Shown here one piece after another: positions 4,817 to 13,198 of a DNA stretch of 33,657 bases. Source of the stretch: Planctomycetota bacterium (GTDB lineage Bacteria; Planctomycetota; Phycisphaerae; Tepidisphaerales; Tepidisphaeraceae); assembly GCA_039182125.1 (NCBI GenBank), contig JBCDCH010000045.1, positions 1 to 33,657 on the forward strand, written 5' to 3'. Each line of letters begins with the position of its first letter. The stretch's first letter is position 1. The position numbers and the translations under genes are program-made. The notes under the pieces were generated by a model. It was not told the origin of the DNA and made no database searches. It saw only the letters and a list, made by a program, of their open reading frames with translations.

Positions 4817-5785
4817 CTACACCCGCGCGGCAAGCACCCCACCGACATCAAGCATCGTCCGCAAGCCCGGCCCACTCCGCGGCAACACGCGGCAACCGTT
4901 GACCAGCGCGGCCACGGTCGCCGAGTCACCCGGCGTGCCCGTCTCGACCCGCACCTTCATCGGCACCGGCCCCTGCACGTCGACACTGTCGAAACTCTCC
5001 GGCTCGCCCACCGCCATGATCAGGTCGAGGAACAGCTTGAGCCCGTCGCCCTCCCAGCCGCCGGTGTTGTGCATGCCACGAACCTTGCCCGGCTCGATCA
5101 TGCCGAGGGCCGAGTCCAACGGCTTGTCCGTGGTGAGCGGTTCGAGCGTCTCAACCACCGCACCGGCCGGGATGGTCTTGCCCAGTGCTGCGGCGAGCAG
5201 ACAAACCGACTCGGCCATGCCCTTGTGACCGATCTTGCCCTGCGCCTTCAGGCCGTTGAACTCGCCCACCGTCATGGTCGCCCCGACCTTGCGTTGCAAC
5301 GGCTCGCGACGCGACTCGGCTTTGACCCGGCGCACCGCCGTGACCGCCGACACTTCGAGCACCATGCTGCTCACCACGGCCGGGAAGTAGTCCAACACGA
5401 AGCCGGGGTTCACGCCCGTACCAAGCAGCGAAACGCCGGCCGCTTCGGCTTCCTTGTCGATCTCGGCGGCCAGCTCGGCATGGCGGTACTTCGGCCAGAG
5501 CATTTCCTCGCAGCTGCTGATGACGTGCGTTTTCTGCTGAATGCATTTTCGCACTAATGGTGCGATCGCGTCGAAGTAGCTGGTCGTGCAAAGGATCGCG
5601 ACATCGGCATCGCCCGACAATTCCTCCACGACCACCGGCCCATCCTCGACCGGCAACGTGCCGACCACCGCCGGGGCAACGTCAACCAGTTCAACCAACT
5701 CCATGCCCGGATCGGCCACGACCGCTTTCGCGGCGGCAACGCCGATCGGACCCAAACCCACGACTGCAATCTTCAAGGTATTCAT
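4817..5785 (-). CDS. DapB-like NAD(P)-dependent dehydrogenase (2,4-diaminopentanoate dehydrogenase-type family)
   Basis: 322 residues. The N-terminus has a Rossmann dinucleotide motif, VVGLGPIG (residues 8-15), followed by an acidic strand end, and TTSYFDAI lies where DapB-type reductases bind cofactor. GTGVNPGFVLDYFP around residues 140-155 is characteristic of the family that includes 2,4-diaminopentanoate dehydrogenase. That family is related to dihydrodipicolinate reductase but the overall sequence is not DapB. It starts 11 bases after the permease stop, so it is operonic with the transporter. This suggests it oxidises or reduces a product of the imported compound. The true substrate is unknown and need not be an amino acid. 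Confidence 0.75.
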   Translation of the reverse strand: MNTLKIAVVGLGPIGVAAAKAVVADPGMELVELVDVAPAVVGTLPVEDGPVVVEELSGDADVAILCTTSYFDAIAPLVRKCIQQKTHVISSCEEMLWPKYRHAELAAEIDKEAEAAGVSLLGTGVNPGFVLDYFPAVVSSMVLEVSAVTAVRRVKAESRREPLQRKVGATMTVGEFNGLKAQGKIGHKGMAESVCLLAAALGKTIPAGAVVETLEPLTTDKPLDSALGMIEPGKVRGMHNTGGWEGDGLKLFLDLIMAVGEPESFDSVDVQGPVPMKVRVETGTPGDSATVAALVNGCRVLPRSGPGLRTMLDVGGVLAARV

Positions 5786-5795
5786 GTTCTGCCTG

Positions 5796-6623
5796 TCAAC
5801 CTTTCACCGCGCCGGCCATGATGCCTCGCGTCAGGAATCGCTGCGCTGCGAGGTAGACCACGACCATCGGCACCAACGCCAACACCGACGCCGCGTAAGC
5901 CAAGCGCAGGTTGCTCGCGAACACGCCCAGCAACTGATTGATCGCAACCGGCAACGTGAACTTGTCTTCGCTTTGCAACACCACCAACGGCCAGAGCAGG
6001 TTGGACCACGCCCCGATGATTGAGAAGATCGCCAGCGTCGCCAACGTCGGGCGAATCAGCGGGAGCATCACGTGCCACCAGACGCGCAGCGCGTTGGCCC
6101 CGTCCATGTGAGCCGCTTCCTCGAGTTCCTTCGGCACGCCGAGCATCGCCTGTCGGCACAGGTAAATCCCGAACGCCGTCACTGAGAACGGAAGAAACAC
6201 GGCGATCAGCGTGTCGAACAGACCCAGGTCCGCGATCGTCACGAACAACGGCACGACGATCACCTGCTCGGGCACCATCAGCGTCGCGAGAATCACCATG
6301 AACAGGAATGACTTGCCGCGAAACTCCATGCGGGCCAGCGGATACGCGGCCAGCGCGGCGAGGATGCAGTTGAGCGTGGCTTGGACGGTGGTGACCAGCA
6401 CGCTGTTGAGCAGCGCCCGCCAGATGCCGCCCTCGTCGAGGACGGTGCCGAAGTTGTCGAGCGTTACGTCGGCCGGAGCGACGATGTCGTTCATCGCGTA
6501 GTCCCCGCCAGCCGGTTGCAACGCGACGTTGAGCAACCAAAGCGCCGGACCGATCGCGAGAAGCACCAACACCGCGGCGGCGGTGTAGTACAGCGCTTTG
6601 AGAATGGGCGGGCGTTCGGTCAT
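5796..6623 (-). CDS. ABC sugar transporter permease, CUT1 family (MalG-like)
   Basis: 275 residues from the ATG at 6623; an in-frame GTG at 6635 is an alternative, and neither has a clear ribosome site. Six predicted membrane segments are visible. The cytoplasmic EAA loop reads EEAAHMDGANALRVWWHVML and then PLIRP, the site that docks the ATPase. It is the second permease of a carbohydrate importer and pairs with the gene at 6671-7531. A 26-base perfect palindrome fills most of the 35-47 bases between the two permeases and ends two bases before the GTG, so its translation may depend on RNA folding. No ATPase gene is nearby, so a shared MalK/MsmK-type ATPase encoded elsewhere is likely. Confidence 0.9.
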   Translation of the reverse strand: MTERPPILKALYYTAAAVLVLLAIGPALWLLNVALQPAGGDYAMNDIVAPADVTLDNFGTVLDEGGIWRALLNSVLVTTVQATLNCILAALAAYPLARMEFRGKSFLFMVILATLMVPEQVIVVPLFVTIADLGLFDTLIAVFLPFSVTAFGIYLCRQAMLGVPKELEEAAHMDGANALRVWWHVMLPLIRPTLATLAIFSIIGAWSNLLWPLVVLQSEDKFTLPVAINQLLGVFASNLRLAYAASVLALVPMVVVYLAAQRFLTRGIMAGAVKG

Positions 6624-6637
6624 CAAATCACACACGG

Positions 6638-6663
6638 GGCCTGGTCACTTAAGTGACCAGGCC
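6638..6663. repeat. 26-base perfect palindrome between the two permease genes
   Basis: The sequence GGCCTGGTCACTT is followed directly by its exact reverse complement, with no spacer (centre between 6650 and 6651). It lies wholly between the stop of the upstream permease (6671) and the start of the downstream one (6623 or 6635). As RNA it could form a hairpin that includes the region where a ribosome site would be expected. As DNA it could be an operator. There is no T-tract, so a simple terminator is unlikely. Confidence 0.8.
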
Positions 6664-6670
6664 GAGTCGG

Positions 6671-7531
6671 TCAGGTCTCACGGGTCAAACGTAGCTGCAC
6701 GAAACTGAATATCAGAATCACCAAGAACAGCGACACCCCCACCGCACAAGCGGCCCCGAACGAACCATCCTCGAACGCCGTCTCGTAGATCAACGGCACC
6801 GCCGTCTTGCTCGCCACGGGCGCACCGCGCACCGTCACGTACAGCTCGTCGAACACCTTGAGCGCACTGATCGAACTGATCAACGCCACCAATACGACGA
6901 CGGGTTTGATGCTCGGCAGCGTCACGTTCCAAAACACACTGACCCGCCCCGCCCCGTCGATGCTCGCGGCTTCCTCGAGTTCCTTCGGCACCGCCAGCAA
7001 CGCCGCAGCGAAGATCATCATGTAGTAGCCGAACCCCTTCCAGAGCGTGACGGTCGCCGCAGTGACGAGGACCCACGGATACTCGCTGAGCCACGGCACG
7101 TTTCCCGGCAACACGGAGTTGAGCATGCCGTTGTTTTCGTTGAACAACACCCGCCACGCGATCGCCGCGACGATCGTCGGCGTCACCACCGGCAGGAACA
7201 ACAACGCCCGCATCCACGGCCCCAAACCCCGCAACCCACTCGTCACCACCAACGCCGCCCCGAGCGACACCGCCATCAACACCGGCGTCACCAGTAGGTA
7301 TAGAAACGAGTTGCCCAGGCACCACCAGAACCGCTCACTGCTCAGCACCCGTCGAAAGTTCTCCAGCCCGACAAACTCCGCATCACCCCACAACCCGCCG
7401 GGCGCGAACAGGTCGACGCGGGTGAACGAAAGCGCGAACACCTGAATCGCCGTCCACACCACGAACACGCCGAGAATGACCACGGCGGGTGTAAGGAAGG
7501 CGTACGGGGTTGTGGACGCGTGGCGGTTCAT
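6671..7531 (-). CDS. ABC sugar transporter permease, CUT1 family (MalF-like)
   Basis: 286 residues with six predicted membrane segments. The first is at about 12-34 after a short polar N-terminus, typical of the MalF/UgpA side of CUT1 importers. The EAA motif is EEAASIDGAGRVSVFWNVTL and then PSIKP. The central FLPVVTPTIVAAIAWRVLF segment is a family hallmark. It follows the binding-protein gene after 128 bases that are mostly an inverted repeat, and no ribosome site is evident before its ATG. It forms the membrane channel together with the gene at 5796-6623. The substrate is probably a mono- or oligosaccharide, inferred only from the family. Confidence 0.91.
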   Translation of the reverse strand: MNRHASTTPYAFLTPAVVILGVFVVWTAIQVFALSFTRVDLFAPGGLWGDAEFVGLENFRRVLSSERFWWCLGNSFLYLLVTPVLMAVSLGAALVVTSGLRGLGPWMRALLFLPVVTPTIVAAIAWRVLFNENNGMLNSVLPGNVPWLSEYPWVLVTAATVTLWKGFGYYMMIFAAALLAVPKELEEAASIDGAGRVSVFWNVTLPSIKPVVVLVALISSISALKVFDELYVTVRGAPVASKTAVPLIYETAFEDGSFGAACAVGVSLFLVILIFSFVQLRLTRET

Positions 7532-7548
7532 CGAGGTGGTGGGAATGA

Positions 7549-7654
7549 CGAATGACGAGTTCCCGAATGACGAATGAAATCCGAAGGCTCAAGTGACGAA
7601 GGCTCCGGATTTCGGATTTGGACATTCATTCGCCATTCGGAAACTCGTCATTCG
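7549..7654. repeat. intercistronic inverted repeat between binding-protein and permease genes
   Basis: Bases 7549-7577 match the reverse complement of 7626-7654 at 27 of 29 positions. AATCCGAA (7578-7585) pairs with TTCGGATT (7611-7618) after a seven-base insertion on the right. The left side is itself built of GAATGAC units (7543-7556, and again near 7565). It fills nearly the whole gap between the solute-binding protein stop (7660) and the permease start (7531). Transcription of the operon would yield a long imperfect hairpin. It resembles dispersed intergenic repeats, but only one copy is present here. Confidence 0.75.
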
Positions 7655-7659
7655 GATTT

Positions 7660-8934
7660 TCACTTGTAGCTCATTCCTTCCGCGTCCGCCCGCAACATGC
7701 GGTTCCATTCGGCGTCAACCTCGGCGAGCACCGCCGCCAAATCCGTGTCTTCCAGCAGCACCCGCTTGATCCCGTCGTTGAACGCGCGGCGCATGTCGGG
7801 CCAAGGACCGACCGGTGGGTTGTAGCTGCGTGCGTTCATCAGGCCGGCGGCACTGAGCGCTGTCGCGGCGGTGATCTTGGTGCTCTGGTCGGTGAACGCC
7901 GGGTCGTCGAGCGAGGCAACGGTGCTCGGCAGCCGCGAAGCGCGAATGGCAAGCTCCGTTTGCCACTCCGGCGAGGCGACGTGCAACGCCAGTGCTTCGG
8001 CGAGCTCCGGGTGATCGCTCTGACGACCAACGGCGAGGTGCATGACCGCCAGCGGATCACCGCCGGCCTTCGAACGCAAGCCGGGCAGCACGACGGTGTT
8101 CTCAAAAAGCGCCGGGTCGGTCTGCTCAATCTTCCGCAGCGCGTTGGCGTTGAGCACGGCGACGGCTTGATCGGTGTATGCCTGGACGGTTTCGCCGTAC
8201 CCGCCGGTTGCCGCGGAGCGGGGCAAGGCACCTGCCTTGAACAGGTCGACCCAGCGTTGCGCGTACGCAACCACCGCCGGGTCGGTCAGGTTCGACCGCC
8301 AACCGCCCTCTTCGTGTGGCATGATCGGCGTCAATCCGTCGGCGATCATCAACGCCGGCAGTTCGCTGTCCTCGCCGAGCCGAAGCGTGAAGAGGAACTT
8401 ACCCGTCGCCGAGTGAAACGGCTCGGCCTGCTCCATCAACGTCGCCCAATCGTCGCCGACGGTCTCGACCGACAATCCGCCCCGCTCCAACAAGTCCGCG
8501 TTGACCACCCGCACCGGCGTCGATAGGTACCACGGCAAGCCCATCAGCCTACCGTCGATCACGCAGGCATCGAGCGCCCCCGGCACGAATCCGCCCGGCC
8601 GACCTTCCAGTTCATGCAACGCCCCGAGGTTTGCAAACACCGCGAAGTCCGCGTCCGACAGATTTACTACGTCCGGCAACGCTCCCGCTGCCCCGGCCGC
8701 GAACATCTTCCGCCGCATCAACCCCCACGGCACGTCCACCCACACCACCTCCACCCCCGGATGATCCGCCTCAAAGTCGGCGACAAGCTCGGCCATGTAA
8801 TCGTTGAACGTCGGCCGAAGCGCGTACGTCCAAAGCTCAAGCTCAACCGTATCATCCCGTTGCTCGCAACTGCCGAACAGCAACACGAGCAGCAACGCAA
8901 GACAGCGACCGAATCGGGCCTTTCGATGGTTCAT
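7660..8934 (-). CDS. ABC transporter extracellular solute-binding lipoprotein (family 1, carbohydrate)
   Basis: 424 residues. The signal peptide ends in the lipobox LFGSC with Cys23 as lipidation site, so the protein is membrane-anchored on the outer face. The mature part begins VELELWTYALRPTFNDYM, the usual first strand of family 1 sugar-binding proteins, followed by FEADHPGVEVVWVDVPW. The C-terminal MRRAFNDGIKRVLLEDTD matches the family's final helices. The ATG at 8934 has GGAGGGAG about nine bases upstream. It lies 51 bases downstream of the prepilin-like gene in the same direction, so both may share the promoter at 9892-9920. Two permease genes follow. Confidence 0.9.
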   Translation of the reverse strand: MNHRKARFGRCLALLLVLLFGSCEQRDDTVELELWTYALRPTFNDYMAELVADFEADHPGVEVVWVDVPWGLMRRKMFAAGAAGALPDVVNLSDADFAVFANLGALHELEGRPGGFVPGALDACVIDGRLMGLPWYLSTPVRVVNADLLERGGLSVETVGDDWATLMEQAEPFHSATGKFLFTLRLGEDSELPALMIADGLTPIMPHEEGGWRSNLTDPAVVAYAQRWVDLFKAGALPRSAATGGYGETVQAYTDQAVAVLNANALRKIEQTDPALFENTVVLPGLRSKAGGDPLAVMHLAVGRQSDHPELAEALALHVASPEWQTELAIRASRLPSTVASLDDPAFTDQSTKITAATALSAAGLMNARSYNPPVGPWPDMRRAFNDGIKRVLLEDTDLAAVLAEVDAEWNRMLRADAEGMSYK

Positions 8935-8985
8935 CAGAAGGGCTCCCTCCGGTCGCCGGCTAGCAGGTGAGGTTCTAATGACGAT

Positions 8986-9885
8986 TTAGTCGGTGTCGCC
9001 GAACGTCGGGATTTCGTAGCCGCTGACGATCTTGCGATCCAGCGGTGACCAGAGTGCTTCGAGGGTTGAAACCGTGGTGTCCACGTCGGCGAGTTCCGAA
9101 TGCCGCAGCATCTCAACGTGCCCGTCGGTGAAGGCAAAGTTGGCCCGACCACGAGCAGTAGGTCCGACAAAGCTGCTGTCGCGACGATGCCGGGTGAAAT
9201 CTAGTTCGGTGTCAGCTTCCGCGATGCCAGCAAGCCGGCCGCCCGGGTTGTACGGAGGGATGGTGATCCCGACAAACCTCTGCCCCGGTGACACACCTTG
9301 GTACCCGATGTCGGCCGAAGCAAAGTAGACTTCGCTTTCCAGAAATACGCTGTGCTTTTCGCCGAAGAGGATCGTGTCGGATGCGCTTGACACGTTGTTC
9401 TTGAAGAACTTGCCACGGTCGAAACCGGTCGTACTGCTGGCGAGTCCGATGAATGCGTCGACTTTACTAGATGCCCAGAAGTTCATCGCGTAGGACCTCG
9501 CCGCATTCTCAATATCCTCGGGGCAGATGAACAACTCACTTGCCACTGAACCAGATGCCGTCACGAGCTCGGCTGGTAGGTAAGGCGCGATGATGTGTTC
9601 TTGGTACCAAAAGGCTTTGTCCAGCGGGTCGCTGTTGTTACTGCTATCGAGAGGAGAGAGGTCGCTGACCCGTGGCGGATAAGCGCCGTTTTGCTCCGTG
9701 GCGTACATCGTCATCGTGATCGCGAGCTGGCGAAGATTGCTCGCGCATTTGATGTCGTTAGCACTACGCCGCGCTGATTGCAGGCTTGGCAGCAGAATGC
9801 TGATCAGGAGCGCGATGATGCCGATGACCACGAGCAGCTCGACCAAAGTAAACCCGACACGACAGGCATGCATCCTGGGAATCAT
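8986..9885 (-). CDS. prepilin-type protein with planctomycete DGH C-terminal motif, linked to ABC sugar genes
   Basis: 299 residues from the ATG at 9885. Residues 9-33 hold the class III signal and first helix: VG, then FTLVELLVVIGIIALLISIL. SARRSANDIKCASNLRQLA is the typical follow-on of DUF1559-like planctomycete pseudopilins, and NFAFTDGHVEML near the C-terminus is the H-X9-DG-type motif. The open frame extends 33 codons further upstream, but a consensus promoter (TTGACA, 17 bases, TATTAT) lies inside that extension with its -10 ending six bases before this ATG. There is no ribosome site, so a leaderless mRNA is inferred. Its position as first gene of the sugar-uptake locus suggests a surface role in substrate capture. 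Confidence 0.85.
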   Translation of the reverse strand: MIPRMHACRVGFTLVELLVVIGIIALLISILLPSLQSARRSANDIKCASNLRQLAITMTMYATEQNGAYPPRVSDLSPLDSSNNSDPLDKAFWYQEHIIAPYLPAELVTASGSVASELFICPEDIENAARSYAMNFWASSKVDAFIGLASSTTGFDRGKFFKNNVSSASDTILFGEKHSVFLESEVYFASADIGYQGVSPGQRFVGITIPPYNPGGRLAGIAEADTELDFTRHRRDSSFVGPTARGRANFAFTDGHVEMLRHSELADVDTTVSTLEALWSPLDRKIVSGYEIPTFGDTD

Positions 9886-9920
9886 TGTTATATAATAACA
9901 AAGTCCCTCGAATCTGTCAA
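9886..9920 (-). promoter_or_regulatory. sigma70-type promoter with overlapping operator-like palindrome
   Basis: On the minus strand TTGACA (9920-9915) is followed after 17 bases by TATTAT (9897-9892), a near-perfect sigma70 match in an AT-rich patch. The predicted transcript start falls at or within a base or two of the ATG at 9885. The -10 lies inside the inverted repeat TGTTAT-ATA-ATAACA (9886-9900), a plausible site for the GntR/LacI-type repressor encoded at 11927-13090. Confidence 0.75.
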
Positions 9921-9989
9921 CTCGCATGGAGCCATGTCGCCACCACCGCAACGAGAAATCTGGCCACGAAGCCCAAGCAGCCATGCCAT

Positions 9990-10715
9990 TTACGGCAAAA
10001 GCGCGTCGGGCGAGTCTTCGAGGTCAGATCCAGCGAACAGTGAGATCGAGGAAAAATATGGACCACGATGGCCCAGCTGAGGGATGTCGCGCAATCCGCG
10101 TCTCTGCTCGTCAAGCGTCTGAATATCAAGAAATTTCGGAATCCAATAGTCGGCCCAGACCCCGTCAAAATCATCGAATCCAATACCAACCACTTTGAGC
10201 CTAGCTGCGGCACCGAGGTCAGGCACTTCAAATTCAAATTGACCGATCCTACGAGTCATTTTCTGTCCAATAGCGACGTACTCATCAGGGACCAAGCTTA
10301 CTCCTAGAGCGAAGTACGGCTCGCCTATCACAGCACCGGGAAGCGACGAAACCATAATGGTATATCTTGTCGCATTCAGTGAAATCTCCCAGCCCTGCTC
10401 TGCAACTTCATCCACTGACACAACAACGGACACATTGGCAATTACCGCGTCATGATCACCCAAACCGCTTAAATTGACCTCTGCTTCGTGATTACCACGC
10501 GGAGAAATCATTTCCAGTGGAAGATTGTTGTCTGGGCTTGGTGTTTCCCACGCAGATTCGAATCCACCATCTGCAGTTGTCCCGGAAAGCTGACGTATGT
10601 ACGGGGCACCTGAATGACCACCTCCTTCAGTATACGGATCTCCATTCATCACATACTGCGAATCTATCGCAAACGTAGCGAGAAGACGACGTGGTTCAAG
10701 ACACTCGATAAACAC
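9990..10715 (-). CDS. LEPR-XLL motif protein of unknown function
   Basis: 241 residues if the GTG at 10715 is used, which places AAAGG eight bases upstream; an in-frame GTG at 10724 is less likely. The N-terminus reads FIECLEPRRLLA, the LEPR-XLL motif found at the start of many surface or secreted planctomycete proteins. The rest has no recognised domain. It looks beta-rich, with alternating hydrophobic residues (VIANVSVVVSVDEV) and no membrane helix or Cys-rich region. The gene and its flanks are visibly lower in G+C than the neighbours. It diverges from the PEP-CTERM gene and precedes the prepilin-linked sugar operon, with a separate promoter for each. Confidence 0.7.
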   Translation of the reverse strand: MFIECLEPRRLLATFAIDSQYVMNGDPYTEGGGHSGAPYIRQLSGTTADGGFESAWETPSPDNNLPLEMISPRGNHEAEVNLSGLGDHDAVIANVSVVVSVDEVAEQGWEISLNATRYTIMVSSLPGAVIGEPYFALGVSLVPDEYVAIGQKMTRRIGQFEFEVPDLGAAARLKVVGIGFDDFDGVWADYWIPKFLDIQTLDEQRRGLRDIPQLGHRGPYFSSISLFAGSDLEDSPDALLP

Positions 10716-10767
10716 AAATGACACCTTTCAAAGCGTGAACGACTTGGCGACAAGAACTTTGCTTCCG

Positions 10768-10796
10768 CTTTTACCGTTGCGAACAGCATCTGTCAA
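10768..10796 (-). promoter_or_regulatory. probable promoter of the LEPR-XLL gene
   Basis: The minus strand reads TTGACA (10796-10791), 17 bases, then TAAAAG (10773-10768), which has four of six -10 consensus bases. The predicted leader of about 46 bases contains the AAAGG site before the GTG at 10715. It shares GTTGACAGAT with the -35 region of the prepilin promoter near 9920. Confidence 0.5.
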
Positions 10797-10864
10797 CGGC
10801 AACCACTCTTGCGCCTGAAAGCAAAATACCAATCAAAGACCAAGCATTGCGTCGCACAAATGAG

Positions 10865-10892
10865 TTGACAAGACTGCCCATTTCGTTATTAT
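10865..10892 (+). promoter_or_regulatory. promoter of the PEP-CTERM gene
   Basis: TTGACA (10865-10870) is followed after 16 bases by TATTAT (10887-10892). The predicted start near 10899 leaves a leader of about 60 bases with AAGGAG (10946-10951) before the ATG at 10961. The -10 context GTTATTATA is shared with the minus-strand promoter near 9892. Confidence 0.65.
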
Positions 10893-10960
10893 AGAAGACC
10901 AACAAGGACTTCCCACTCAACCCGGCCGATCGACTCGGCCCTCCAAAGGAGAAAACGAAA

Positions 10961-11866
10961 ATGCGCAAGCACATGATTTTCGCCGCCGTCGCGGCCACCG
11001 CAATGACTGTCCCGGCCTTTGGCCAACTTATCGCCAACGACCCGTTCCTCAGCGGCGACAGCGCCGGTGCCGGCGAATACTCGGTCGGTGTGGACGTGCG
11101 TGGTGAAGGCGCGGCCGCCCTCGGCTGGGTCGGCCTTTCGGGTCAGCCCGATGGCTTTGGTGTGGCATACGCAACGCCGACCGGCAGCCTCGGCACGTCC
11201 AACTTCCAGGGCAACGCGCTGGGTGAGGACTCCGCCGCGGTCGACTACGAAACCGGTGGCCGCCTGCAGTGGATCGGCGTCGGCAACTTCCCCGGTGATC
11301 GCACGATCACGCGCCAGCTCAATCCGATTCCGTCGTCGCCGACCTACTTCATGAGCATCATGGTCAACCGCCTGAACTGGGCGGGCACGCCGGCGGACAA
11401 CACCTTCGTCGTGGGCGGCTTCACCGACGCGAACAACAACGGCCTGCTCGTCGGTTACGACGACGTCCTCAACGACGGCACGCCCGAGTTGGTGTTCCGC
11501 TCGACGAACGATCCGTCGGGGACCAGCACCATCCTGCTGCCCGACGCCCCTTCGAGCGACAACCAGCTCGTGATCGTCGGGCTGACAATCAACACCGCAG
11601 GCAATGATGAGTTGAGCATCTTCGTCGATCCGGCCGATATCTCCGCCGGGCCGTCGCTCACCGTCTCGTCGATCAACGTCACCGACTCGCTCACCCCCTT
11701 CACGCAGAGTCTGTTCTCCTCGCCCGGCCAGTCCGGCGTGGTGTTCTTCGACGAGCTACGTCTCGCGACCGACTTCGCCTCGGTCGCCGGCGTCATCCCC
11801 GAGCCGGCCAGCATCGGTCTGCTCGGCGTGGCGGGCCTAGGCCTGCTCCGTCGCCGCAAGGCATAA
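10961..11866 (+). CDS. PEP-CTERM sorting domain protein
   Basis: 301 residues. The ATG has AAGGAG nine bases upstream. A Sec signal peptide ends near residue 22 (AFGQ). The C-terminus is a textbook PEP-CTERM tail: IPEPASIGLL, a short glycine-rich hydrophobic helix, then RRRKA. Exosortase-type enzymes recognise and cleave this tail, so the protein should be exported and attached to or released from the cell surface. The body (about residues 25-270) is rich in Gly, Asn, Asp and Ser with almost no Cys, and resembles beta-sandwich surface proteins; no ligand can be named. A strong intrinsic terminator follows directly. It is transcribed divergently from the LEPR-XLL gene. Confidence 0.88.
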   Translation: MRKHMIFAAVAATAMTVPAFGQLIANDPFLSGDSAGAGEYSVGVDVRGEGAAALGWVGLSGQPDGFGVAYATPTGSLGTSNFQGNALGEDSAAVDYETGGRLQWIGVGNFPGDRTITRQLNPIPSSPTYFMSIMVNRLNWAGTPADNTFVVGGFTDANNNGLLVGYDDVLNDGTPELVFRSTNDPSGTSTILLPDAPSSDNQLVIVGLTINTAGNDELSIFVDPADISAGPSLTVSSINVTDSLTPFTQSLFSSPGQSGVVFFDELRLATDFASVAGVIPEPASIGLLGVAGLGLLRRRKA

Positions 11867-11891
11867 CCACGATCAGAGTTGATCTGAACCA

Positions 11892-11928
11892 GCGGCGTGT
11901 GTCCCATCGCGGACACACGCCGCTTTTT
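11892..11928 (+). terminator. intrinsic terminator after the PEP-CTERM gene
   Basis: GCGGCGTGTGTCC (11892-11904) pairs perfectly with GGACACACGCCGC (11911-11923) around a six-base loop, followed by TTTTT (11924-11928). The T-tract overlaps the stop codon of the convergent repressor gene, so the two genes share only these few bases. Confidence 0.95.
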
Positions 11929-13090
11929 ATTCCACGGCGGTGGTGCTGTTACGTTCGACGAAGTCCGCACGCATGGTCTCGCGAGCCTTGGTCTTCTTCC
12001 CGTTGATCCGGGCGACGAGGAGCTTGACCGACTCGTATCCGAGCTTGGTCAGTGGCTGCCGCAAGGTCGTGAGCGATGGGGAGAGAAACTCCGCGCTGGG
12101 CGGATCATCGACGCCGACGACGCTCAGGTCGTCGGGCACGGTCAACCCCGCCGCCTGGGCGGCGTTGTAAACGTCGAGCGCGAAGTAATAGCCGCATGCG
12201 AAAATCGCCGTCGGCCGACCGGGAGACGCGAGCCGCGCGCTGAGTTCGGCGATGCCCTCGGGTCCGAGCCGCCAACCGCTCGAAGCGAAGACGTGCCGAG
12301 CATCGACCTCGAGACCTGCCTGTTCGACGGCAGCCGCGAAACCTTCCCAGCGGTGTCGGCTATTGCTCGCTCCGCCCTTATCACCGACGAAGCCGATGCG
12401 TTTGTGACCGAGCTCGACGAAATGCTCGACGGCCCGGGCGGCCAGATCGCGGTTGTCGGTGTCCACCGTCGCCACGTCCGGCTCGTCGCAGTCGGCACCG
12501 ACCACCACCGTCGGCTTGCTCCGGTTCGCCCGCCCTGCTCCGCTCTCCAAGTCACCGGGCAGCAGGTTCACATATAGGAAGCCGGCACACTCGTTGCGGA
12601 CATCCTCCCCGTAGCGCAGGAGCATCACATCGACGTGGAGCTTGTGCGACGCCTGGCGAACGCCCTCGAGTAAGTGGCCGTGATAGTGATCGGCGAGCGA
12701 GGCCTCGGCGTGGAAGACCAAACCGATGCGGGTCTGCGCGAGGTTGCCGATCTTCTCGCGGTAGCGCTGATCGACGAACGTGCCCCGGCCCTGACTCCGA
12801 CGCAGCACGCCGGCCGCCACGAGTTCCTGAAGCGCGCGGTGGCCGGTGACGAGCGAGACATCGAGCTGCTTGCTCAACTCGGCGGTCGATGGGATCCGGC
12901 TGCCCAGCGCGTAGGTGCCGTCGTCGATCGCGGCGAGGATCGCGTCACGCGCAGCAACGTAGAGCGGCACTCCCGCCGCCGGCTTCAAGGCCTTGAGCGG
13001 TTTGGCCGTCCCGTCTCTTTTCCGGACAGCCGCAGCATCGTCCGACGCCGCACCCGCGGCGGTTTGCTTCTGCGATTTCTTTTTGGCCAT
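11927..13090 (-). CDS. GntR-type HTH / LacI-type sensor hybrid transcriptional regulator
   Basis: 387 residues from the ATG at 13090; the open frame continues upstream without a better start. A Lys/Ala-rich N-terminal tail (about 1-40) precedes a winged helix with GntR hallmarks: AILAAIDDGTYALGSRIPST, then GHRALQELVAAGVLRRSQGRG. From about residue 110 a periplasmic-binding-protein-like sensor follows (RIGLVFH at its start, HKRIGFVGD, DDLSVVGVDD, SLTTLRQP), as in LacI and AraR. Such hybrids usually repress sugar genes and are released by a sugar. No operator was proven, but the palindrome at 9886-9900 is a candidate. It is convergent with the PEP-CTERM gene. Confidence 0.88.
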   Translation of the reverse strand: MAKKKSQKQTAAGAASDDAAAVRKRDGTAKPLKALKPAAGVPLYVAARDAILAAIDDGTYALGSRIPSTAELSKQLDVSLVTGHRALQELVAAGVLRRSQGRGTFVDQRYREKIGNLAQTRIGLVFHAEASLADHYHGHLLEGVRQASHKLHVDVMLLRYGEDVRNECAGFLYVNLLPGDLESGAGRANRSKPTVVVGADCDEPDVATVDTDNRDLAARAVEHFVELGHKRIGFVGDKGGASNSRHRWEGFAAAVEQAGLEVDARHVFASSGWRLGPEGIAELSARLASPGRPTAIFACGYYFALDVYNAAQAAGLTVPDDLSVVGVDDPPSAEFLSPSLTTLRQPLTKLGYESVKLLVARINGKKTKARETMRADFVERNSTTAVE

Positions 13091-13198
13091 GGAAGGCTCA
13101 GCCCGTCGTGATGAGACAACGGTAACCCAACACCCCACAATCTCCAAAGACGCCGACGAAGCTTGCGGGATCGCGACCTGCTCGGGACAATGATTCTT

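Follow-up and report, generated by a model that had tools for sequence, protein, structure and literature searches.

A tag of the LEPR-XLL type at the start of many proteins in one planctomycete family, and its probable role in export or sorting

Double-glycine leaders are short, hydrophilic and N-terminal and have small residues where cleavage is assumed, and in Caulobacter an RTX S-layer protein is secreted via a type I system. The signals known for type I secretion of RTX proteins are C-terminal and uncleaved, according to the accessible part of PMC3034196. The closest catalogued sequence is the LEPR-XLL domain (NF012209), and one giant LEPR-XLL protein, from Vibrio, is described in the accessible part of the literature as having RTX at its C-terminus. 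In the papers covered, with subscription papers mostly outside the search, LEPR-XLL is mentioned in passing and never as regards function, and the accessible parts of two papers on giant genes and proteins of planctomycetes (PMC11573180 and PMC5177795) leave the tag unmentioned, in line with the original prediction that the role of LEPR-XLL is not established.

The locus presented here lies in a stretch of 33,657 nucleotides, analysed as a whole and called the window, from a bacterium of the family Tepidisphaeraceae (Phycisphaerae, Planctomycetota) whose assembly is referred to as the source genome. The original prediction had singled out in it an AT-rich gene (the target) that encodes a 241-residue protein with an N-terminal LEPR-XLL motif and that diverges from a PEP-CTERM gene. 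The features of the locus, with positions in the window, are as follows.

9990–10715, minus strand: target gene, 241 aa, start GTG at 10715, 50.7% GC, body orphan
10724–10728, minus strand: AAAGG, ribosome-binding-like site of the 241-aa target start, read from the sequence
10674–10709, minus strand: N-terminal tag of the target, I-E-C-L-E-P-R-R-L-L-A-T, agreeing at 9/10 constrained consensus positions
9993–10052, minus strand: C-terminal tail of the target, SSISLFAGSDLEDSPDALLP, with SLFA at 10032–10043
10768–10796, minus strand: promoter-like site of the target (TTGACA, 17 nt, TAAAAG as a weak –10), read from the sequence and absent from the promoter scan list
10961–11866, plus strand: PEP-CTERM gene in divergent orientation, 301 aa, its product beginning with a Sec-like signal peptide; a neighbour outside the tag system
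10865–10892, plus strand: sigma-70-like promoter of the PEP-CTERM gene (TTGACA, 16 nt, TATTAT), 11/12 matches
8986–9885, minus strand: prepilin-like gene (DUF1559 / H-X9-DG), a neighbour, with ATG 9885 placed by eye and the mechanical ORF reaching 9984
9892–9920, minus strand: sigma-70-like promoter of the prepilin-like gene, 11/12 matches

The minus-strand open reading frame (ORF) of the target ends at 9990 and offers two starts, GTG 10724 (244 aa) and GTG 10715 (241 aa), the latter being the better one since AAAGG (10728–10724) ends 8 nt upstream of it. The protein begins with MFIECLEPRRLLAT, its N-terminal reading is MFIECLEPRRLLATF, and LEPRRLL occupies residues 6–12 of the 241-aa form, so that the ORF and a literal L-E-P-R-x-L-L near its N-terminus were found as predicted. 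In a wider sense, IECLEPRRLLA conforms to the N-terminal pattern [VILF]-E-x-L-E-x-R-x-L-[LFM]-[AS] and comes without a hydrophobic stretch. The consensus against which the tag was scored was built from the source genome and from G013, a genome on a single contig that represents another genus in the same family; the T at +8, the last constrained position (the L of LExR being numbered 0), recurs in 3/52 other tag copies. As had also been noted, the base composition of the target deviates from that of its neighbours: GC amounts to 51.2% in the bin 10001–10500 and to 49.6% in the bin 10501–11000, compared with 54.6–68.4% in the other bins of the window, and the gene (GC3 45%) has the third lowest GC among the 49 tagged ORFs measured (mean 63.1%).

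In NCBIfam and Pfam no family matches the target at E ≤ 1, in agreement with the claim that it has no known domain, and homologue searches with 240 residues (initiator left off) found no relatives of its body in PDB sequences, a plasmid collection, 100 related genomes or a collection of genome contigs. Neither a PEP-CTERM match at its C-terminus (NCBIfam, Pfam) nor RTX nonapeptide repeats (Pfam search) were detected. The hydrophobic core of about 8–15 residues by which Sec signal peptides are recognized is missing, the Kyte–Doolittle maximum of the N-terminus being 0.73, below all of four Sec-like or prepilin controls (1.88–3.37), which bears out the announced lack of a classical signal peptide. 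A Tat signal peptide was also discarded: RR is present, but no hydrophobic core follows it, and the second R differs in 14/54 tag copies. The structure prediction that had been proposed as a check was run on the single sequence and gave a model with a mean pLDDT of 35, which was set aside as useless. Most likely, the target is a genuine gene with an orphan product, one of about 50 very different proteins of the source genome that have a short front-end sequence in common, at the place where an ordinary secretion signal is found in other bacteria.

TTGACA is located at 10796–10791 (minus strand), 10865–10870 (plus strand) and 9920–9915 (minus strand), and GTTATTATA is common to the PEP-CTERM and prepilin promoters; the exact –35 elements expected at the target, PEP-CTERM and prepilin genes, and the –10 expected to be common to two of them, are thus in place. 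Within the window, TTGACA is counted 10 times for 10.6 expected, and because this is a chance frequency, the common hexamer looks like a generic sigma-70 element and provides no evidence of co-regulation. The source genome has 28 PEP-CTERM-like places. When these are compared with 58 tag places on the same contig, a distance of up to 10 kb is seen just once, for the place in the window; the assembly consists of 131 contigs, and pairs across gaps are invisible. Together with the lack of homologues of the target body in the 100 related genomes, these counts speak against any real association of the target with the PEP-CTERM and prepilin genes; the divergent arrangement is a local one and does not amount to a system. 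Absence of the gene beside PEP-CTERM or prepilin genes in relatives had been named as a result that would count against the original prediction; it was observed, and it disposes of the pairing but not of the tag. Positions 4817–13147 of the window resemble a sugar-uptake region, with a solute-binding protein, the prepilin-like and PEP-CTERM genes and a regulator of GntR-LacI type according to family search; inspection by eye adds genes for two ABC permeases and one that is dehydrogenase-like. The target, with its high AT content, looks inserted among these genes.

What the original prediction missed is that the motif recurs across the source proteome, where the signature [VILF]-E-x-L-E-x-R-[RKQ]-L-[LF]-[AS]-[AVG] forms the start of 53 mostly unrelated proteins. 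At the DNA level, E-x-[LF]-E-x-[RS]-x-[LF]-[LF]-[AS] has 40 matches in the source genome versus 1 when written backwards; the looser LE.R.LL is not enriched there (103 versus 137 backwards). In other words, the signal is made of the residues added to LE.R.LL and of the N-terminal position. From 100 listed places of LE.R.LL, 70 distinct amino-acid matches were derived, 54 of them with Glu at –2; when the motif was reversed and sought in the same DNA, this residue was present in 0/5. L039, one of the 54, looks spurious and was left out, so that 53 were studied further. At the positions left free by the search, +4 is R or K in 48 of the 54 copies, +7 is A or S in 43, +8 is A, G, V or S in 49 and –3 is V, L or I in 34. 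Since the codons vary between copies, selection acts on the protein.

Nearly all of the 53 tags open an ORF, at about 3 to 75 residues from a possible start codon (some begin as early as residue 3–5), and the sequence after them continues for 100 to >2,000 residues in ORFs of about 130 to 7,500 residues. The tag separates two regions of different charge: the 12 residues before it contain 14–15% K+R and 3–5% D+E, and the 30 residues after it 4–5% K+R and 10–16% D+E. The median Kyte–Doolittle maximum of the tagged N-termini is 0.95 (n = 53) versus 1.88–3.37 in the controls, with 4/53 at 1.63–1.88, equal to the weakest Sec-like control. An amphipathic targeting helix was rejected, the hydrophobic moments lying under those of shuffled sequences. 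Two further AT-rich ORFs of the source genome (L056 and L023) are tagged. Giant RTX ORFs of 5,165 and 7,534 residues (L003/L177 on contig C1 and L009 on contig C3) have the tag variants LEKRVLLEG and LEQRILLSG, which link the tag to giant LEPR-XLL proteins.

The core DNA pattern was found in 26/26 genomes of the family, at 5–73 matches each (785 matches versus 9 backwards); these were counted everywhere and read as proteins in the source genome (G000) and in G013. The tags of G013 are alike, Q being frequent at +4 and F or M at +6; in the alignment that includes this genome, the constancy of E at –2, E at +1, R at +3 and [AST] at +7 is no evidence because the search demanded these residues. 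Among 114 other genomes of the class, at least one match was found in 57 (153 in total, maximum 12 per genome), versus 52 matches in 35 of the same genomes with the pattern backwards; many of the genomes with multiple matches have the classic LEPR[LV]LLS form, and those with a single match are indistinguishable from chance. A stricter pattern was present in 50/392 genomes sampled from the phylum (27 backwards), 28 times in the source genome, which is the sole member of its family in this sample, and at most 7 times elsewhere.

The cargo of the tag is diverse. RTX repeats occur in 21/53 tagged bodies, and the other domains include PA14, subtilase, Calx-beta, lectin, PKD, fn3, dockerin, GH8, heparinase and CBM9. 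Conversely, when the RTX ORFs of the source genome are listed by a search independent of the tag, 27/29 have the tag (22 exactly) or something close to it (4 found by script and 1 by eye), and the untagged ones among those listed are an ORF on contig C22 with a Sec-like signal peptide and a 155-aa ORF on contig C6. Among the RTX ORFs listed in G013, 24/25 are tagged in frame, some by eye, and 1 is tagged in the neighbouring frame, so that in the two genomes together 51/54 RTX ORFs read carry the tag or a variant. The exception in G013 (L178), in which the tag lies just upstream in the neighbouring frame, is possibly a frameshifted copy. L172 (contig C22, 38065–39915), the only RTX protein in the source genome that clearly lacks the tag, sits 75 bases downstream of a PEP-CTERM gene (39991–40926) on the same strand.

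Cysteine accounts for 0.03% of the residues in tagged bodies versus 1.04% in 98 neighbouring ORFs; the tagged proteins of G013 are richer (0.12–0.23%). Depletion as a mark specific to the tag was ruled out, since the family's PEP-CTERM proteins contain as little cysteine (0.026% in 17 proteins, with 11 coming from a single genome), and it therefore argues for export rather than for a special route. Tagged subtilase homologues have 0 cysteines in 5,846 residues and Sec-like subtilase homologues from other families of the class 1.3%; perhaps disulphide formation differs.

In homologues of the tagged subtilase L082 from the source's family, the tag stands just before the catalytic domain in 11/11 loci read (14 were given, and 3 that matched the C-terminal part of L082 only were left out). 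Other families provided 16 loci in 16 genomes, of which 11 are readable: 10/11 begin with a Sec-like signal peptide and have no tag (Kyte–Doolittle maximum 1.71–2.58, judged by hydrophobicity and eye), and the remaining one (in G360) has a tag variant and no signal peptide. The plasmid collection contributed distant matches only, which were left unused. For heparinase homologues of the family, an LExR core was recognized in 11/11 loci read of 24 given (4 by script and 7 by eye), often without Glu at –2; here the exchange test gave no support for a swap, the 6 outside loci having 1 signal peptide and 5 neither, as if these 5 were intracellular enzymes. Among PEP-CTERM proteins read in relatives, 0/19 have the tag; 14 of these have a readable N-terminus, and all 14 show a hydrophobic stretch (maximum 1.69–2.71). 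Cysteine poverty, the mutual exclusion of tag and PEP-CTERM and the exchange in subtilases point to export. In one genome (G015), 11 long proteins (L221–L231) have a similar C-terminal tail, FSSQ-GP-PEP...LLRRRR, which looks like a PEP-CTERM cassette copied between them.

A second feature missed by the original prediction concerns the C-terminus of the target (SISLFAGSDLEDSPDALLP), which resembles the ends of other tagged proteins in the source genome. The expression [STAVMIP]LF[ASNTD], composed after inspecting the ends, matches within 50 residues of the end in 13/51 tagged ORFs (target included) versus 17/536 untagged ones (Fisher 1.4e-7). SLFA-like elements 17–35 residues from the end are also seen in L004, L019, L053, L056, L078, L086 and L093. 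No such tail was found by eye in the tagged proteins of G013, which places SLFA outside the general signal; it may be a second signal at the genus level.

The search for an export machine covered several candidates. C39 peptidase, the mark of double-glycine exporters, is absent from 22/26 family genomes, including the source genome and G013, and a double-glycine leader read by C39 transporters was ruled out on this basis. A PrtD-type transporter above the curated cut-off was found in 0/20 genomes and also in 0/14 controls, Caulobacter included; weaker ABC matches are many in every genome of this test, so that its outcome has little bearing on whether a type I exporter is present. Beside tagged genes, no gene family recurs in more than 2 of 97 neighbouring proteins.

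Sequence comparison establishes the signature, its N-terminal place and its spread in the family, as well as the extracellular type and cysteine poverty of the tagged bodies and, among homologous subtilases, the replacement of tag by Sec-like signal peptide. On this basis, LEPR-XLL in the wide sense would be, with a probability of about 0.6, an N-terminal export or sorting tag that takes the place of a Sec signal peptide in dozens of mutually unrelated extracellular proteins of this family. A membrane-bound receptor or translocase would recognize E-x-L-E-x-R-x-L-L, assisted by the basic stretch before the tag and the acidic stretch after it; the tagged protein would then exit the cytoplasm, and the tag would probably be cleaved past the small residues at +7/+8 ([AS]-[AVG]). 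The target might come to lie on the cell surface or outside it, its SLFA tail being a putative second element at the genus level. A bolder version, put forward tentatively, would make LEPR-XLL the address label of an undescribed export route that works without a Sec signal peptide or a C39-type transporter; in this proposed route, a hydrophilic tag of about 12 residues would serve dozens of unrelated calcium-binding or enzymatic cargoes of up to about 7,500 residues, and the system would be greatly expanded in one family, with few copies in others of its class and phylum.

Other explanations must be weighed against export or sorting by the tag. The tag could be a surface-retention or anchor signal, in which case a type I-like ABC exporter would read the C-terminal ends and the N-terminus, last to emerge, would be caught at the envelope. 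That many tagged bodies are RTX is consistent with this idea, proteobacterial RTX proteins being exported by type I systems through C-terminal signals (PMC3034196, accessible part), as are the pairing of LEPR-XLL with RTX in the giant Vibrio protein (in the accessible literature) and the SLFA element at the end of part of the tagged proteins of the source genome. The transporter searches cut both ways, with C39-type ABC proteins absent from the source genome and G013, but with weaker ABC matches in every genome and a PrtD cut-off missed by all controls too. The anchor is nevertheless unlikely, because the tag occupies the place of the signal peptide in subtilases and because the tagged proteins of G013 have no SLFA tail by eye. 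That place in homologues would also suit an atypical Sec signal peptide, handled by the ordinary Sec machinery, in which a basic n-region is followed by a minimal core, LL, and by a cleavage site at [AS]-[AVG]; the charge asymmetry and the small residues at +7/+8 are as in signal peptides, and 4/53 tagged N-termini are as hydrophobic as the weakest control. Most, however, lack a hydrophobic stretch (median 0.95 versus 1.88–3.37), conserved charged residues stand where the h-region is expected and some tags begin at residue 3–5, which makes this explanation decidedly improbable.

The doubt may also bear on the target alone, whose motif would then have arisen by chance, or be a relic, within an AT-rich ORF that is spurious or decaying. 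Agreement at 9/10 constrained positions at the very start of an ORF of 241 codons, a ribosome-binding-like site and the resemblance of the C-terminal tail to those of other tagged proteins make this very hard to believe, even if the body has no homologue in all collections searched, the composition is deviant and the structure model has a mean pLDDT of 35; deviant composition is, moreover, shared by the AT-rich tagged ORFs L056 and L023. The target gene is a small orphan cargo, and the discovery is its label. If LEPR-XLL is indeed an export or sorting tag, a domain so far known by little more than its name turns into a sorting signal that can be tested, the consensus allows a hidden exoproteome to be listed, including most RTX proteins, which a search for hydrophobic signal peptides would assign to the cytoplasm, and a concrete question is raised, namely which machine recognizes the tag.

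With regard to known systems, the tag has the N-terminal LEPRxLL core that NF012209 (LEPR-8K, LEPR-XLL domain) describes on giant extracellular proteins, and two long ORFs of the source genome (L001 and L097) have a literal LEPRMLLSS core. The tag core is wider here (LExR[RKQ]L[LF]), with conserved E at –2 and [AS] at +7: the target does not reach the curated 17-bit cut-off of NF012209 and has no match to it at E ≤ 1 or E ≤ 10, a search of the source genome with this model found one place, other than the target, and 4/53 tagged proteins are retrieved even at E ≤ 10. Double-glycine leaders of C39 exporters are likewise short, hydrophilic and N-terminal and have small residues at the presumed cleavage point, but the tag has no double glycine and C39 is missing in 22/26 family genomes. 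Type I RTX secretion shares the calcium-binding repeats, the cysteine-poor passengers and the absence of a Sec signal, but the tag is N-terminal and the source genome has no C39-type transporter. With a Sec signal peptide, the tag shares the N-terminal location, a basic side that comes first, small residues at its end and an interchangeable position in subtilases; it differs in being mostly devoid of a hydrophobic core and in having conserved charged residues in its middle. The PEP-CTERM/exosortase system, which co-occurs in the source genome, is similar in that a short sorting signature marks many unrelated exported proteins per genome; PEP-CTERM, however, is a C-terminal signature with a hydrophobic helix that goes with a Sec signal peptide, whereas the tag is N-terminal and hydrophilic.
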